Assembly: GCA_021272165.1 (NCBI GenBank)
Contig: JAJSLK010000063.1
Span: 26,528 to 90,527 of the forward strand
Direction: 5' to 3'
Source: Methylacidiphilales bacterium
GTDB lineage: Bacteria > Verrucomicrobiota > Verrucomicrobiia > Methylacidiphilales > UBA1321
Length of the DNA stretch: 64,000 bases
Positions 41,307-62,646 of the stretch are shown piece after piece. The position numbers were made by a program, and so were the translations under genes. A model generated the notes under the pieces. It worked only from the letters and a program-made list of their open reading frames with translations. It ran no database searches and was not told the DNA's origin. The stretch's first letter is position 1. Each line of letters begins with the position of its first letter.

Positions 41307-41469
41307 GGTTGCGTCCTTGGGAAAACAGAAAGCACTAATCGTTCCTGATGGAAAGCCTGGCGTGCGAATTTGCGCGTCCACGCGAGTTCCCTCTCCGCTT
41401 GCACCCATTCTTTCCCAGATTGACCTCTCCGGCGAAATACGCGACTTTGCCTCTGTCTTCCCCAAAACA

Positions 41470-41511
41470 GGACGAGTGGCAGAGTGGTTGAATGCGGCTG
41501 ACTTGAAATCA
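41470..41511 (+). pseudogene. tRNA-Ser 5'-half remnant
   Basis: GGACGAGTGGCAGAGTGGTTGAATGCGGCTGACTTGAAATCA; ends immediately after the anticodon loop. Confidence 0.85.
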
Positions 41512-41697
41512 TTTCGCCACATACTTAAGGTTATTATAGGATTGTAAGTGACTATTTGGGCGACCACTTACAAAAGTCGATTTTCACTCAAAAATGAAAA
41601 AAGTCTGCCAGAGGAGACAAATCTGCCTCGGGGGTTGTGGGGAAATGTGGGGAAAATCTTGGACTGACAGATAGTCAGCCTGAGAGAAAAAGAGGGC

Positions 41698-41783
41698 GGA
41701 CGAGGTAGGATTTGAACCCACGGTGGAGTTTCCCCCACGCTCGATTTCAAGTCGAGAGCCTTAAACCACTCAGCCACTCGTCC
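41698..41783 (-). tRNA. tRNA-Ser(TGA)
   Basis: Reverse complement GGACGAGTGGCTGAGTGGTTTAAGGCTCTCGACTTGAAATCGAGCGTGGGGGAAACTCCACCGTGGGTTCAAATCCTACCTCGTCC; complete arms. Confidence 0.94.
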
Positions 41784-42007
41784 AGAGGTGAGAAGGCATA
41801 ATACCCTTGGTGGTAAGTGGTTTCAATCTAAACGTCGAAGGCGCGATTCTGAGACACAATTTGACGATGCCTTTAGGCCGTTGGCTTCGCAGGATCGTAC
41901 CTGAGAATTAGCAGAGCCGGGCCTGTGAATAAAGAAAGTCAGGTGTTCACTTTAGATAGAAATCCGATTGTAGGTTCTCCCTACACTCCTAGTCCTGACC
42001 TTCAAAG

Positions 42008-42733
42008 TTAGTTCGACAACATCTGCTCAAACGTCTTATCCACTTCATCATCGCTCTCATTTTTCTGTTCTTCCAAGAGACGTTTACCCGCATCCAACAT
42101 CGATTCCCTCTTAGGTGGTTCTTTCTTGGTTATCTCGGGGGGAGGAGTGTTGCTCAATCCACGGTAGCATTTGAAACCGTCTTGCTCGTCGGTGATGTAG
42201 ACCATAGCACTAAGTTCTCCTCTTGTCGGTATCTTCAATTCCTTCGCCTTCTCCCTGAAGGTCGCAGGTGCCACATGGAAGAATGAAGCCAGTTCCTTTG
42301 TTCTAATCAACCCATAGCCGATTTTCTTCATAACCTCGCTACGGTCTAACACGATCTTTTTCCGTGAATGACCCTTTCTCGTGTTCGCACCTACTGTTAC
42401 CGTGTGGTTACTACCGTTAATGGTAGAGGGCGTAGAAACAGCGTTATTAGATGGTAGAGGATCATCATCAATGAAGGCGTGAAAGGGATGTGATTGCTTC
42501 TCAAGTTTGGCCCTGTAGCTGGAAAGTCCTTCAATCTCGGATTGTTTCTGTTTAATCAGATTGTCGGTTCTTTCTATCTTCGCATTTTTCAACTCAAACT
42601 TGTAGAACTCAACTTGATGAGCCATCGCCTCTGCAAGAGCCAGTTTGTCTGACAGTTCACCGTAGACGAATACTTTCTTGATCCGGCGTTTGATTCCTTC
42701 GATGTACGATGGAAGGTCGCGAATGGTTCTCAT
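42008..42733 (-). CDS. Hypothetical protein with HTH-like segment
   Basis: MKKIGYGLIRTKELASFFHVAPATFREKAKELKIPTRGE; island gene. Confidence 0.5.
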   Translation of the reverse strand: MRTIRDLPSYIEGIKRRIKKVFVYGELSDKLALAEAMAHQVEFYKFELKNAKIERTDNLIKQKQSEIEGLSSYRAKLEKQSHPFHAFIDDDPLPSNNAVSTPSTINGSNHTVTVGANTRKGHSRKKIVLDRSEVMKKIGYGLIRTKELASFFHVAPATFREKAKELKIPTRGELSAMVYITDEQDGFKCYRGLSNTPPPEITKKEPPKRESMLDAGKRLLEEQKNESDDEVDKTFEQMLSN

Positions 42734-42761
42734 TTGTTACCTTCCTTGTCCTTAACGATCT

Positions 42762-43256
42762 TTAGAACGAGTTCACGGGTACCCAGTTCTTGATATGAGA
42801 AGCGTCGTCATCGTCATTTGTCGCTGGAAGAAATCCTGTGTAGAAAAACTCCAACCGATTCTCGCTTACTTTTAGAGACGGATGTACATCGTCATAACCA
42901 CACAAGCTTTCCGGCATTCCTTTCAATCGGGCGGTTATGCTGTCACAATCCTTTCCCATACTAACCAAGGATTTGAATAGTTCGATGTAACCAACCGGAA
43001 ACGTCCAGTCCTTTTGAATCGAAAGCAAATCCTTGCTAGAGATATTGTGACTCACGGTTGATTGTGACCACCATACGTTGTTATGGACGTAATCCACCCG
43101 TCGTTTCCGCAACAACTCCTCTATACTAACAGTGCGAATTGTTAGTGCCTCTCTGGTGATCTTGTTGACCTGTCTAATCAGTACCGGTTTCAGTCTCTTG
43201 GCAGAGTTTCCAATAGTTGCGAGTTTAATGTCGTCGCGTGACTGTTCTTTTTTCAT
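42762..43256 (-). CDS. Hypothetical island protein
   Basis: 164-aa ORF upstream of and co-oriented with the previous gene; no family recognised. Confidence 0.45.
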   Translation of the reverse strand: MKKEQSRDDIKLATIGNSAKRLKPVLIRQVNKITREALTIRTVSIEELLRKRRVDYVHNNVWWSQSTVSHNISSKDLLSIQKDWTFPVGYIELFKSLVSMGKDCDSITARLKGMPESLCGYDDVHPSLKVSENRLEFFYTGFLPATNDDDDASHIKNWVPVNSF

Positions 43257-43414
43257 TGTGATTGTATTTATAGCATATATTAACTTTATACTCGATCCTA
43301 AAATGCTAGTGAGTAGTTATTTTTCAAATGTGCTTGTAGAAATATAACTCTGTGCGTTTCACTGCAAAAATACTCAGAACGCATTCACATCTATTTTGGT
43401 AGGGATATAGCCAA

Positions 43415-43816
43415 TCACTTCATTTCGTCGAATCTAGGGCCATTTCTGACGTTGCATGTTGCAGAATGATGTTTTTCCCTTCGGATATTCCACCTGTGAC
43501 ATGCGGAGTAAATCGTCGGCTTCGATGTCTTCAAAGCTTCAGCAATGCCTGTTACCGAGCAGTTACCTTTCTCGATCTCCGCAAGAATGGCTTCCTTGGT
43601 TACCTTGTAATATCGGAAGGTGAGAATGTCAGTAGAGGGAGGTAGAGAATCACGACGTAGCGCGAATTCGATTCCTTTTAAACCCCGTTGTTCAAGGATG
43701 CCCTTCTTTATAAGTTCTTGGAGTATACACCAAACGTAACCTAAGCGGATGCCGGTGACCGCGCCACCTACGACCCGCGCAAACGGTATGGGAGTTTTTG
43801 CCCGGCGAAACTGCAC
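43415..43816 (-). CDS. Hypothetical DNA-binding protein (two HTH-like segments)
   Basis: LGYVWCILQELIKKGILEQRGLKGIEF (winged-HTH-like) and CSVTGIAEALKTSKPTIYSACHRW. Confidence 0.45.
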   Translation of the reverse strand: MQFRRAKTPIPFARVVGGAVTGIRLGYVWCILQELIKKGILEQRGLKGIEFALRRDSLPPSTDILTFRYYKVTKEAILAEIEKGNCSVTGIAEALKTSKPTIYSACHRWNIRREKHHSATCNVRNGPRFDEMK

Positions 43817-43960
43817 TCAACTGCGACCAAATTTGCGACCAGTGCGACCGGAAATGTGACCAAACTAGTAATGGCAAGTTAACGCGAATTTTAACTCTTT
43901 AGCCTTGAATAATAGGAAGTTACAAATATACTAAAATACGCTTCAGAGTATAGAGTTGGC

Positions 43961-43977
43961 CGAATCCTACCTCGTCC
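43961..43977 (+). pseudogene. tRNA-Ser 3'-end remnant
   Basis: CGAATCCTACCTCGTCC; last 7 nt pair perfectly with GGACGAG at 41470; 17 nt (aatcctacctcgtccgc, to 43979) identical to the intact tRNA-Ser 3' end. Confidence 0.75.
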
Positions 43978-43986
43978 GCATTCTGA

Positions 43987-57344: not shown

Positions 57345-58586
57345 ATGTTTGTAATGCGCAAAACCTCTGAAAAATGGCCGATTGCGATCAAGGCCGGTAG
57401 CGTCACGGTCAAAATTTATCGGACGGTGAACCGGGGCCGCCCAATGTTCACCGCCAGCTATCACGAGGCCGGAGGCCGTAGGCTACGCCAATTTGCCGAT
57501 TTAGCCGATGCCCGCCGGGAAGCCAAGGTCATTGCTGGGCAATTGAGCGCGGGGCAAGGTGCGGCCTTGGAGCTTACCGGGAAGGATCGCGACGTTTATC
57601 TCTTCGCAGTGTCGAAGCTCAAGCCGTTACAGGTGCCCTTAAATGTCGCCGTGGAAGAGTTTGTTGCCGCCAAAAAAATCGGTGTACCCTTGTTAGCTGC
57701 CGCCAAATTCTATCATGAGACGCACTCGGCCAAACTGCCGGAGAAAACCGTCTCTGATGTCGTCGCCGAGTTCCTTGTGGCGAAAAAGGCTGATGGCCGC
57801 AGCGTCCGCTACCTTCAGGACTGCAAAGCTCGCCTGGAGCGATTCTCGCGCGATTTCAGGGAGAATTTGAAGGACGTGCGGACTAAGGAGCTAGATGCTT
57901 GGTTGCGTGGCCTGAAACTGTCGCCCAGGACACGTAATAATTTTCGGACGGTCATTTGCTCCCTCTTTAGTTTTGCCCGCGATAATGGTTATTTGGTCAA
58001 GGGCAAGCCAACGGAAGCCGAATCAAGTACGGTTGCAAAGCAGGGAGACGGTGAGATCGAGGTATTCACACCGGCGGAATTTGCGCTGCTTCTCACGGCG
58101 GCGGATGAACATCTTTTGCCGTTTCTCATCTTCGGGGGCATGGCCGGGCTGAGGAGTGCGGAGATTCTCCGGTTGAAATGGGAAAACGTGAACTGGGCGG
58201 AAGGTGTTATCGAAATCCAAGGTTCCGTGGCGAAAACCGGAACGCGCCGTCTTGCGCCCTTGGTTCCCGCCGCTGCCGCATGGCTCAAGTCCTATAAGGG
58301 GGCACGAGGCCCGGTTATCGGGGCAATCAAACTTTACGAACGATTGGAGAAGCTGTCCGAATCGACCGGCGTGGCATGGAAACAAAACGCGCTTCGCCAC
58401 AGCTTTTGCAGCTACCGCATGGCTACCTTGAAGGACGCTCCCCGCGTCTCCTATGAGGTAGGTAATTCTGTCCGTATCATTCAACGGCATTACGACAAGG
58501 TCGTGACCGAATCGCAGGGGAAGACGTGGTTTTCCATCTTGCCAAAGACTGCCGCGAATGTGATTCAGATGGAGGCTGCGGCATGA
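57345..58586 (+). CDS. Tyrosine-family site-specific integrase
   Basis: FGGMAGLRSAEILRLKWENVNW (R), ALRHSFCSYRM (HxxR-like), VRIIQRHYDKV (H/Y). Confidence 0.9.
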   Translation: MFVMRKTSEKWPIAIKAGSVTVKIYRTVNRGRPMFTASYHEAGGRRLRQFADLADARREAKVIAGQLSAGQGAALELTGKDRDVYLFAVSKLKPLQVPLNVAVEEFVAAKKIGVPLLAAAKFYHETHSAKLPEKTVSDVVAEFLVAKKADGRSVRYLQDCKARLERFSRDFRENLKDVRTKELDAWLRGLKLSPRTRNNFRTVICSLFSFARDNGYLVKGKPTEAESSTVAKQGDGEIEVFTPAEFALLLTAADEHLLPFLIFGGMAGLRSAEILRLKWENVNWAEGVIEIQGSVAKTGTRRLAPLVPAAAAWLKSYKGARGPVIGAIKLYERLEKLSESTGVAWKQNALRHSFCSYRMATLKDAPRVSYEVGNSVRIIQRHYDKVVTESQGKTWFSILPKTAANVIQMEAAA

Positions 58587-59347
58587 AGAAAAAGGCCCAG
58601 ACCTTGCCGAAGAAGTTAGGTGACGAGTTCGACCTTACCTATATTGAGACGCTGAGCGAACAGGAACGCCGCGCCGCGACGTTTTACGAATACGCCCGCC
58701 ATTCCGGTCCGATCAAGGATTTGATAATGGAGTTGCGAAAAGAAGGCATTTTCAGCGGGAGCGGGAGGGAAGCCAGCCCGGAGCTATTTAAAAAACTACT
58801 TCCAAAAATGACATCGGGCATTTTAAAGGGGGACGAACTGATATTCCTCACTAACTGCACCGATTTTCCCGATCAGCCTTTCAGACTAACGGCAGAGTAC
58901 CGTAACCTTTTTGGCTCTGGGACCCAATCATTCGGGATCAAGGCACCCTGTTTTTTTCCGTGGAAGGCCGTAGATGCTTTTCGCTCGGACTGGAGGAGCA
59001 AAGGATTAAACGAGGCTGAGATGCTGGCAAAAGCTGGCTGGTATCCAGTTTACCTGCCGTGGGGAAATTACACGGATGAAGAAATTACCGAGATGCTTGG
59101 CGAACGCATCGGTAGCTTGCGCCCCAGCCATGCTCCCGAACCTAAAAGACCTGGCCGCAAAGGGAGTTCCAAGAGTTTGGGGACGCTCGACATGGTTCGT
59201 CAGCTCAAAGCTTATCGGCTGCACGCCACATGTTGTGATCGTCCGCCTCGATTGTACCAAAGCGAAAAAGGGTGGAACCAAGCAATTCGAGCTGCCGAGA
59301 AGCGTATCGAGGGAATGATGGAGCGGCCATTTTTCGGCTCCTCTTGA
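58583..59347 (+). CDS. Hypothetical element-encoded protein
   Basis: ATGA overlap with the integrase; MKKKAQTLPKKLGDEFDLTYIETLSEQERRAATFYEYARHSGPIKDLIMELRKEG. Confidence 0.5.
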   Translation: MKKKAQTLPKKLGDEFDLTYIETLSEQERRAATFYEYARHSGPIKDLIMELRKEGIFSGSGREASPELFKKLLPKMTSGILKGDELIFLTNCTDFPDQPFRLTAEYRNLFGSGTQSFGIKAPCFFPWKAVDAFRSDWRSKGLNEAEMLAKAGWYPVYLPWGNYTDEEITEMLGERIGSLRPSHAPEPKRPGRKGSSKSLGTLDMVRQLKAYRLHATCCDRPPRLYQSEKGWNQAIRAAEKRIEGMMERPFFGSS

Positions 59348-59396
59348 GAGGAAGAAGACGGAAATAAATGGTCGGGCATTTACTTCCGTTGAGAGG

Positions 59397-59633
59397 TTGC
59401 CAGCCTGCGCATTAAAGTGCTGCCCAGTGATACGGAGCACACCACAAATCAGCGCAGGCGGCTATCTGCGGGGCGATAAGGCCCTTGCTGAATACCTCGG
59501 CGTGTGCCTCCGCACGGCCATAAATTTACGCGAACGCGGTTTTCCACACTACCGCATCGGTCGCGGAGTCTTTTTTAAGGCGAGTGACGTTGACCGCTAC
59601 CTTGAAGATCATTGCCGGAGGGGGGCGCAATGA
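59397..59633 (+). CDS. Excisionase-like HTH protein
   Basis: GDKALAEYLGVCLRTAINLRERGFPHYRIGRGVFFKASDVDRYLEDH (HTH_17 pattern). Confidence 0.75.
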   Translation: MPACALKCCPVIRSTPQISAGGYLRGDKALAEYLGVCLRTAINLRERGFPHYRIGRGVFFKASDVDRYLEDHCRRGAQ

Positions 59634-60604
59634 GGCCGCCGTTTATTCCCCGACGTACTCGCGCGGAACTTGCCAGCCCCACCGCGCCCGGTGGTCGGCA
59701 CGAACAGGCCCGGCGCATTATCTTCTCTCTCGTGGCGCAAGGATTCTGCGTCGATGCCGTTTTCGCTCAGGTGCGAGGCATGTACGGCGCTGATTTTAAG
59801 GATGCTGAAATATGGTCCTTAATCCGAGGGGCAGAGAGAAAGAATCCCCAGCCCAGCGGATACGGCAACCGCTATCACAATTCTCCCGTGCCCCGGCCCG
59901 CTCAGCCGGTCACCGCAGAAAGTGCCACCGCCGGCGTGGAGCGATTTTTAAAGTCATTCCGATGCGACGAGGCGGACGTGTGGCACGCTTCGCCCTGGCG
60001 TCCGCTGGAAGATTGGCGCATGGATTCTCTGATGGTTTTTGCCGGTCTCTTTTTTGAGCATGAGTACGTCAACATCGTTGCCGATCATGTCGAAGGTCAA
60101 CCAGTTGGCGCTGGCCAGATAATGCCACGTGACAAATGGATGCGACACTTTCGAGAGCACGGCGCTCCGCAATGCCCGGCGGGTGCATGGTTCCGATTTA
60201 ATCCGGTTGCCGAAAAGGGGAGCGGGAAAGGTGGCGCTGTCTGTGATTCGGACGTGACCGCATATCGGTTCCTGCTTATCGAATCGGACAAGCTGTCGAT
60301 GGAATTGCAGCTTTCCTTTTTGGGTAAGCTGAGACTTCCCATTGCTGCCCTCATCTCATCCGGCGGAAAGTCGATTCATTGTCTCATCAAAATGGATTGC
60401 GCCGACGCGGATGAATACCGCGAACAGGCTGCACGGATTCTGAAAATGCTCCTGCCCTATGGATTCGATATAGCCAATAAAAATCCTTCCCGCATGGCTC
60501 GCTTGCCAGGCGCTACTCGGCAAATTGACGCGAACGAGAGCGGCGAACAGCGGTTGCTTTTTTTCAGCCCAGAGGCGGCACACGGCGACAGGATTTTTCC
60601 ATGA
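59630..60604 (+). CDS. Primase/replication protein-like
   Basis: LLIESDKLSMELQLSFLGKLRLPIAALISSGGKSIHCLIKMDCADADEYREQAARILKMLLPYGFDIANKNPSRMARLPGATR, typical of element primases. Confidence 0.65.
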   Translation: MRPPFIPRRTRAELASPTAPGGRHEQARRIIFSLVAQGFCVDAVFAQVRGMYGADFKDAEIWSLIRGAERKNPQPSGYGNRYHNSPVPRPAQPVTAESATAGVERFLKSFRCDEADVWHASPWRPLEDWRMDSLMVFAGLFFEHEYVNIVADHVEGQPVGAGQIMPRDKWMRHFREHGAPQCPAGAWFRFNPVAEKGSGKGGAVCDSDVTAYRFLLIESDKLSMELQLSFLGKLRLPIAALISSGGKSIHCLIKMDCADADEYREQAARILKMLLPYGFDIANKNPSRMARLPGATRQIDANESGEQRLLFFSPEAAHGDRIFP

Positions 60605-61632
60605 AGGGCGAAACTTTGAACGAGACGGAATCGGAACTCATTGAGGCCATGCCAGACTGTGAAGACGTTCCGACCGCCCGTGACGCTATCGACTTGGTCA
60701 ACGATGTCGAGTTAGTCGAGCCGCCGATCCTGGTTGCCGGGCTGCTGCACAAGGGCAGCACGCTTTTACTTGGTGCATCGTCAAAGAGTTTCAAGTCATG
60801 GAGTCTTATCGACCTTGCTCTATCCGTTGCCAGTGGCCGGGAGTGGTGGAATTTATCATGCACAAAAGGCCGGGTACTCTATGCCGATTTTGAGCTTACG
60901 CCATTTTTCTGGCGCAAACGGGCAATGGAGATCGCCGAGGCACGCAATTTAACCTTGGACAACATCCGCGTGATGAACTGCCGAGGGTATGAAGCTTGTG
61001 CTGCTCTGTTAGCGATTGAACGCGAGGCGCAGTCTCAGCCTTTCGATTTGATCTTACTCGATCCACTCTATTCCTTCCTCGCGGGCAGAGATGAAAATTC
61101 TGCGGGCGATGTCGGCTTGATCTTGCGAAGACTCGCCATGCTTGCCGAATCAACGGGTGCGGCTCTGGCCATCTCACACCATTTCAGCAAGGGCAATCAA
61201 AGCGCGAAAGAAGCCATCGACCGCTTTTCCGGTAGCGGCGTGTTTGCTCGCTTCCCAGATGCGTTGCTCACCATGACCCGACACGAGGAAGATGGCGCGT
61301 TTGTTGTCGATGCCACCGTGCGAAACTTTGCGCCTATAAACCCGTTTGTCTTGCGCTGGCAGCACCCGCTCATGGCACGGGACGGCTCGCTTAATCCTGC
61401 CGATATAAAAAAGCCGCCTGGATCGTTTCAAACCAAGTACACGCTTGAACAAGTCCTAAGCGTCATGGGGTCAAAGGTAATGACCGCAAAAGAGGTGGAG
61501 CTTGCCTGCCGTGACACACACAAAATGGGCGATTCGACGGTAAAGCGTCTTTTGAAAAAAGGCAAAGAGGACGGAAAAGTAATCCAGCCCAGTGCCGGGT
61601 TATGGCAGAGGGTCACGGGGTCACAGCCGTGA
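60601..61632 (+). CDS. RepA-like P-loop ATPase/helicase
   Basis: GLLHKGSTLLLGASSKSFKSWSLIDLALSVASG; LYADFEL; FDLILLDPLYSFLAGRDENSAGDVGLILRRLAMLAESTGAALAISHHFSKG. Confidence 0.78.
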   Translation: MKGETLNETESELIEAMPDCEDVPTARDAIDLVNDVELVEPPILVAGLLHKGSTLLLGASSKSFKSWSLIDLALSVASGREWWNLSCTKGRVLYADFELTPFFWRKRAMEIAEARNLTLDNIRVMNCRGYEACAALLAIEREAQSQPFDLILLDPLYSFLAGRDENSAGDVGLILRRLAMLAESTGAALAISHHFSKGNQSAKEAIDRFSGSGVFARFPDALLTMTRHEEDGAFVVDATVRNFAPINPFVLRWQHPLMARDGSLNPADIKKPPGSFQTKYTLEQVLSVMGSKVMTAKEVELACRDTHKMGDSTVKRLLKKGKEDGKVIQPSAGLWQRVTGSQP

Positions 61633-61795
61633 GCCTCATGCCCATGAACCCCATGAGCCTCGCGCATGAGGGTCAAAGGCTCACACCCTTTAGGGTGAGC
61701 CTGAACCTCTGCACCGAGGGTCAAGGCGACATCTACGCACCAGCCATACTGCCGGGTGGTCGTCACACCGAGGACATTTTATCGAAAGGAAAAAC

Positions 61796-62179
61796 ATGAT
61801 CCCGCTGGAAACCGAATTTTACTCACGGGGCTTTTGCCACAAACAAACCATGAGGGTCAAATTTACTGCGATATTTGCCCGTTTTAGGCGTTCCGATCCC
61901 GAAAAGGTCATCCACTACGAGGTCGTGACTATAACGCCCGGAAAACCCTACAATATTGCGGGAATCAATTTTCCAGCCAAGGAACAGTACCCGTGCTCCG
62001 AGCAATGGGGGGAAAAGGGCTGGACGTACTTGGACGAAGACCAAGCTCGCAGCCGGTTCGAGATGTTGCTGGCAGTCGGACGTGACGTGCCTGGCCGATG
62101 GTTGAGCGTTGCTAACGAATCCCTGGTTAACCCGATAAAAGGCACCCCGCCTCGCGCAGGCGCGCGCGATAGCAGATAA
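61796..62179 (+). CDS. Hypothetical element protein
   Basis: 127-aa ORF in the replication cluster. Confidence 0.4.
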   Translation: MIPLETEFYSRGFCHKQTMRVKFTAIFARFRRSDPEKVIHYEVVTITPGKPYNIAGINFPAKEQYPCSEQWGEKGWTYLDEDQARSRFEMLLAVGRDVPGRWLSVANESLVNPIKGTPPRAGARDSR

Positions 62180-62329
62180 AATTATGAACAGTAATCAAAA
62201 ACATTCAAATTCGCTGTTAGCTACAAATTTAATAACAGTGAAGCAGAATGCGTTTGACCCCTAAAAACATAGATTCCTCGCGCGTGCGCGCGCGCATACA
62301 AAATAAAATCATGAACCGCAATCAAAAAC
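62150..62329 (+). repeat. Imperfect direct repeat of about 53 bp (62150-62202 and 62276-62329)
   Basis: cctcgcgcaggcgcgcgcgatagcagataaaattatgaacagtaatcaaaaac / cctcgcgcgtgcgcgcgcgcatacaaaataaaatcatgaaccgcaatcaaaaac. Confidence 0.8.
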
Positions 62330-62646
62330 GGGACGCGACACTCGGCGATTTGAACAAACAACTAGCCGAAAAGGACCTGGAATCCAAAGCCGTCGATAAG
62401 CTGGAGGAATGCCTTGAGGCGACTAACACCATGTATGACATCAAGGGAAAGATCCTCCGCAAGTTCCCCGACTTCAAAACGAAGCTGCGCGCGATTACCC
62501 TGGGCCTTGCTTATACGGCCGGCAAACCGGTGGAGAGGTCCGAAGTGATTACCCAGCGTCACACCAGCTTGGAAGACTTGCGCGCCCAGGCGAAGGCATC
62601 GCCTGAACTGAGGCGTGCGCTAAGGGAACTTCTCGGCGAGGATTGA
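62248..62646 (+). CDS. Hypothetical element protein
   Basis: 132-aa ORF, charged helical composition. Confidence 0.45.
   Translation: MRLTPKNIDSSRVRARIQNKIMNRNQKRDATLGDLNKQLAEKDLESKAVDKLEECLEATNTMYDIKGKILRKFPDFKTKLRAITLGLAYTAGKPVERSEVITQRHTSLEDLRAQAKASPELRRALRELLGED

Follow-up and report, generated by a model that had tools for sequence, protein, structure and literature searches.

The window analysed here is a stretch of 64,000 nucleotides (bases 26528-90527 of a 90.5-kb contig) from the genome (G000) of an uncultured Methylacidiphilales bacterium, whose assembly consists of 88 contigs and is 88% complete. Two fragments of a tRNA-Ser(UGA) gene lie on the same strand and border an island of 2.45 kb, across which the GC content drops from approximately 60% to 40-47%. 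The island contains a complete tRNA-Ser(UGA) on the opposite strand and three co-oriented open reading frames, also on the minus strand (Table 1). This arrangement was recognised in the initial annotation and is confirmed here: both fragments are identical to the tRNA-Ser(UGA) gene of a relative (G006), the complete tRNA was recovered by ARAGORN and by the Rfam tRNA model (41697-41783), and the three reading frames and the low GC content are present as described. The comparison sample comprised 384 genomes of the class, and the family consists of G000 and 11 other genomes. The relatives are approximately 77% identical to G000 at pfkA, and their gene order hardly matches that of the window. Because pfkA and tylF are not adjacent in these relatives, the orthology of the broken tRNA gene was traced through G006; no tRNA-Ser was found within 1.5 kb of pfkA in G002, G004, G006 or G007.

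Table 1. Features of the island and its borders (window positions).
Feature	Position	Strand	Remarks
Promoter region of the broken type A tRNA-Ser(UGA)	41419..41469	+	blastn 81% to the region upstream of intact type A in G006:C149; TTGACCT conserved
Type A tRNA-Ser(UGA), 5´ relic (positions 1-42) that breaks off in the anticodon arm	41470..41511	+	42 nt identical to G006 type A; 44/44 with G009:C11
Junction DNA between relic and inverted tRNA (182 nt)	41512..41693		no convincing relative; GCGACCACTT and CTTACAAAAGTCGA-like matches to attL weak
Perfect 9-bp inverted repeat TTGTAAGTG/CACTTACAA	41542..41573
Tandem TTTCCCCACA, two copies, possible arm-type sites of a lost integrase	41636..41655	-	2 matches in the window, 0.11 expected
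Complete type B tRNA-Ser(UGA), apparent replacement	41694..41784	-	ARAGORN; Rfam 55.3 bits; 96% identical to G002:C54
Type B promoter (GACGTTTAGATTGAAA, then TATTAT)	41785..41836	-	conserved in G002 and G007
Orphan ORF of 241 aa, not assignable to a recombinase family	42008..42733	-	low-confidence AlphaFold model
ORF, 164 aa, orphan	42762..43256	-	low-confidence AlphaFold model
ORF, 133 aa, helix-turn-helix	43415..43816	-	weak HTH matches
attR arm-type integrase sites TGCGACCAAATTTGCGACCAGTGCGACCGGAAATGTGACCA	43822..43862	+	array shared with att ends of integrase elements in G002, G003, G004 and G009
3´ end of type A tRNA-Ser (positions 70-88), attR core	43961..43979	+	19 nt identical to type A, 17 to type B

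The tRNA-Ser(UGA) genes found in the relatives belong to either of two lineages, and no relative in which such a gene was found carries both. Type A occurs in G006 and in the more distantly related G008-G011, whereas G002, G005 and G007 have type B as their UGA gene; no type A relic was found in these three. The two fragments in the window derive from type A. A blastn comparison of 41419-41511 with G006 (81%, E 8e-16) covers the 5´ relic together with approximately 50 nt of upstream sequence, and the 3´ fragment corresponds to the last 19 nt (70-88 of 88) of the G006 gene. A stretch of 27 nt of the type A tRNA (GCTTTACCCTCGCGGGTAACGTGGGTT in G006) is contained in neither fragment, and so the 42-nt and 19-nt pieces do not sum to a whole gene; no type A 3´ half was seen elsewhere in G000. 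The type A gene of this genome is thus broken and not rebuilt, and 41470-41511 and 43961-43979 are its remains. The initial description of a split tRNA-Ser gene holds, but the missing 27 nt show that the fragments are not clean halves; the two ends of the island differ in their history. The promoter of the broken gene is kept (41419-41511), and the orphan 5´ half of the tRNA may still be transcribed.

The complete gene in the island belongs to type B and therefore is not an inverted copy of the broken one. Its body resembles tRNA-Ser(CGA), and its acceptor stem and 3´ end resemble type A, as if the gene (41694-41784) were a recombinant. The possibility that it arose as a hybrid from the 5´ half of an element and the 3´ half of type A was rejected, as its 3´ half is its own (anticodon stem CTCGA/TCGAG). 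The tRNA and its promoter are common to G000, G002 and G007; the type B tRNA of G005 has a different upstream region. The 5´ sequence of the type B tRNA was absent from viral contigs. UCA codons require a UGA anticodon, so loss of type A is viable only with a second UGA tRNA. Type B is intact, is the sole UGA gene found in the G000 assembly and fills this need, although a further UGA tRNA may lie elsewhere in the incomplete genome. With the same specificity, type B apparently took over the job of the broken serine tRNA.

The three reading frames of the island yielded at most weak helix-turn-helix matches against Pfam and PHROG. No relatives of the 241-aa protein were found in the order and none of the 164-aa protein in the phylum sample; viral contigs, phages and plasmids contained no relatives of the island proteins where each was tested. 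Single-sequence AlphaFold models of the 241-aa and 164-aa proteins have pLDDT values of 36-43. The start annotated for the 133-aa frame, which falls immediately within the attR arms, may be incorrect. The integrase domain PF00589 was detected at 13 places in the genome, none of them inside the island, so the earlier observation that the island encodes no recognisable integrase stands. A novel recombinase among the three proteins finds no support, although these proteins are too isolated for it to be dismissed.

The right end of the island is the attR of a tyrosine-integrase element that targets tRNA 3´ ends. An arm-type motif, GCGACCAAATTTGCGACCA, lies 121 nt before the tRNA 3´-end core. Among the 384 genomes of the class, exact copies of this motif are confined to G000, G002, G003, G004 and G009; outside the family it is matched only with two mismatches, and it was absent from viral contigs. 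Several GCGACCAAATTTGCGACCA sites adjoin relatives of one tyrosine integrase of approximately 370 aa, and sites are also located beside tRNA 3´ ends, such as that of tRNA-Asn in G009. The type A tRNA-Ser(UGA) of G009 harbours the closest counterpart, an intact element of 6.5 kb (G009:C11:9507-16013; L063:5507-12101) that has the motif at both ends and encodes an integrase beside the restored tRNA, a rolling-circle-type replication protein (REP_ORF2-G2P) and a KAP NTPase. The arm motif, the core and the target gene are the same as in the window, and the arm-core spacing (123 nt) is nearly so. Since this spacing and the orientation match, the 3´ fragment in the window is the displaced end of an element of the G009:C11 type, with the arm array and the core in the fixed order and spacing of this integrase family. 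Whereas the G009 element is complete, with its integrase and a restored tRNA, the window keeps the attR only: the attL with restored tRNA and adjacent integrase is absent, type A is unrestored and the integrase is gone. Two related integrases (40-42% identity) are encoded elsewhere in G000, and mobilisation of the island by them in trans is conceivable but not indicated. The KAP NTPase of the compact G009 element shows a strong PifA match.

The left end presents a different picture. The type A relic breaks off in the anticodon arm, at tRNA position 42. An independent relic, of tRNA-Ser(CGA) in G009 (G009:C23:179286), stops at position 40, also in the anticodon arm, and belongs to a group of elements that attack the 5´ side of tRNA-Ser(CGA) and transcribe their integrase away from the tRNA; integrases are located upstream of tRNA-Ser(CGA) in G003, G007, G008 and G009. 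This coincidence of the relic ends suggests that the left break was made by an anticodon-site integrase rather than by random deletion. The left end would fit an anticodon core; its partner att end is absent. Crossover sublocations in the anticodon loop and at the 3´ end are both recognised among tRNA islands, and 5´ fragments are rare (159 of 3919 islands; PMC4383910). Within the junction DNA, a 10-nt match to GCGACCACTT at approximately 41562 (+) resembles an attL arm (alignment score 21, p about 0.02 before correction). The perfect inverted repeat encloses GGGCGACC. The tandem TTTCCCCACA repeats have no match in the other 11 family genomes even with up to 3 mismatches allowed. They may be arm sites of a lost left-end enzyme, or they may instead belong to an element located at the type B 3´ end.

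These results are best accommodated by a decayed composite of two integrations at a former chromosomal type A tRNA-Ser(UGA) site from which the integrases were deleted, a reading that we regard as evenly poised between acceptance and doubt. A tyrosine-integrase element related to that of G009:C11 would have entered the 3´ end of the tRNA and left its attR, namely the arms and the 19-nt core (43822-43979). For the left side, we infer a second element, whose crossover in the type A anticodon loop left the relic without rebuilding the gene and which most likely carried type B on the opposite strand as a substitute. Both integrases would later have been lost in a deletion that also took the inner att sites and the central part of type A and so fixed the dependence on type B. 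Elements with an integrase 5´ of tRNA-Ser exist in the family, which supports this reading, and breakage with replacement would find a precedent in tRNA-dependent lysogeny (PMC10865867). The missing att partner of the supposed anticodon-site element counts against it, and with no integrase remaining, the left end is not tied to any element. Type B may also be an ordinary chromosomal gene that arrived otherwise, given that G002, G005 and G007 have it without a type A relic. The initial annotation had proposed one element that breaks its target and supplies the replacement. The old gene is indeed broken and the only UGA tRNA found lies inside the island, but the replacement need not be the act of a single element, given that the attR at the right end stems from a different, 3´-end-targeting element and that the target has lost 27 nt.

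A simpler history, which we consider possible but rather unlikely, involves the 3´-end element alone: type B would be its cargo or the product of horizontal transfer or rearrangement, and a single ordinary deletion would have stripped the redundant type A of its 3´ half, together with the integrase next to it. Two events, an integration and a deletion, suffice here; the attL-like match at the left end is accommodated, and type B sits among ordinary-looking genes in the relatives. However, the deletion would have to end by chance at the crossover position of integrases in the anticodon arm (a coincidence of roughly 3% by position alone), and no tRNA gene other than the targets was found near the related att sites. 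An inversion between the 3´-end cores (41694-41712 and 43963-43979, which are inverted repeats) that flipped a segment once carrying type B in the plus orientation is improbable. A 22-nt inverted repeat of 91% identity is located exactly at both ends, and undoing the flip sets type B directly before the right flank; yet the attR arms are already correct in orientation and spacing to the core, and undoing the flip would part the arm-core pair from its flank and leave the relic next to a bare attP-like site. Since both tRNAs have the same 3´ end, they would share the core in any case. In its simplest form, as an exchange between copies of one tRNA, the inversion suggested earlier is also unlikely on account of lineage, as the body and the anticodon stem of the inverted gene are CGA-like and the fragments belong to the other type. 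An assembly error at the island, joining DNA of different loci or strains, is possible but unlikely and has the smallest chance of all: the assembly is fragmented (88 contigs, 88% complete) and tRNA genes are repeats, but the longest exact matches of the junctions to other tRNA-Ser copies (11 nt on the left, 17-19 nt on the right) are below usual assembly k-mers, the island GC is coherently low and the att signal has the correct geometry.

Under the two-integration reading, delivery of type B by the anticodon-site element would make the event resemble tRNA-dependent lysogeny; otherwise, type A would simply have decayed as a redundant gene. The evidence leans only modestly towards the former. 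In tRNA-dependent lysogeny, which is known from Fionnbharth, LeBron, Gaia and other actinobacteriophages, integration occurs at a short core (8-17 bp, common to attL and attR), the tRNA is not rebuilt and a tRNA of the same isotype is supplied (PMC10865867). The locus resembles these cases in its broken, unrebuilt host tRNA and in a tRNA of the same anticodon within the inserted DNA. Unlike them, it has no integrase within the island, no phage genes and only one att end of the anticodon-site event; moreover, the target lacks 27 nt, the tRNA is presumed to have come with an element, and the host belongs to Verrucomicrobiota. How common the phenomenon is outside Actinobacteria was asked by its describers (PMC10865867), and the locus, though degraded, is a Verrucomicrobiota candidate. 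A bolder proposal is doubtful at present: that a small integrative element outside Actinobacteria cuts the essential tRNA-Ser(UGA) at the anticodon loop without rebuilding it, carries an opposite-strand tRNA-Ser(UGA) to which the host becomes addicted, and in this way spreads type B through the genus. The old gene is broken but retains its promoter, and the new one appears to do the work alone, so that the locus resembles a snapshot of an essential tRNA gene being exchanged via mobile DNA.

As in the tDNA islands catalogued by Islander (PMC4383910), tRNA fragments mark the ends of the island. In those islands, the gene is usually restored by the island and oriented as the fragment, whereas the complete gene in the window is opposite and of another lineage, a configuration that is filtered out by Islander (PMC4383910). 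The window also has no integrase between the complete tRNA and the fragment. The 5´-side elements at tRNA-Ser(CGA) in G003, G007, G008 and G009 share with the window a relic that ends in the anticodon arm, as seen in G009. These elements supply, in the same orientation, a new promoter and a new 5´ half; in contrast, type B in the window is complete and inverted, and its 3´ half is not that of type A.

The two tRNA-Ser genes of the family are integration hotspots, with integrases hitting opposite gene ends. The 5´ side of tRNA-Ser(CGA) is occupied repeatedly (L062:16785-18077, L073:10278-11471, L124:6503-7816 and L023:1619-2547), with the integrase pointing away from the tRNA, and the supply of a new promoter and 5´ half makes this a rare type of tRNA integration. 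In G009, the occupation forms a nested array (L061:5000-5420 and L062:18037-19370; G009:C23:179286-245300), in which the 5´ relic with a truncated integrase lies 64.7 kb upstream and the complete gene has integrases on both sides. An 8.3-kb element is located at the type B tRNA-Ser of G007 (G007:C10; L058:6690-15120); its integrase is cut to a 102-aa DUF6538 start, and its cargo gives weak matches to defence families. A separate integrated element occupies 57345-62646 of the window, with a 413-aa tyrosine integrase followed by an AAA_25 ATPase, and contig C42 of G000 carries a relative of the gene at 59612.
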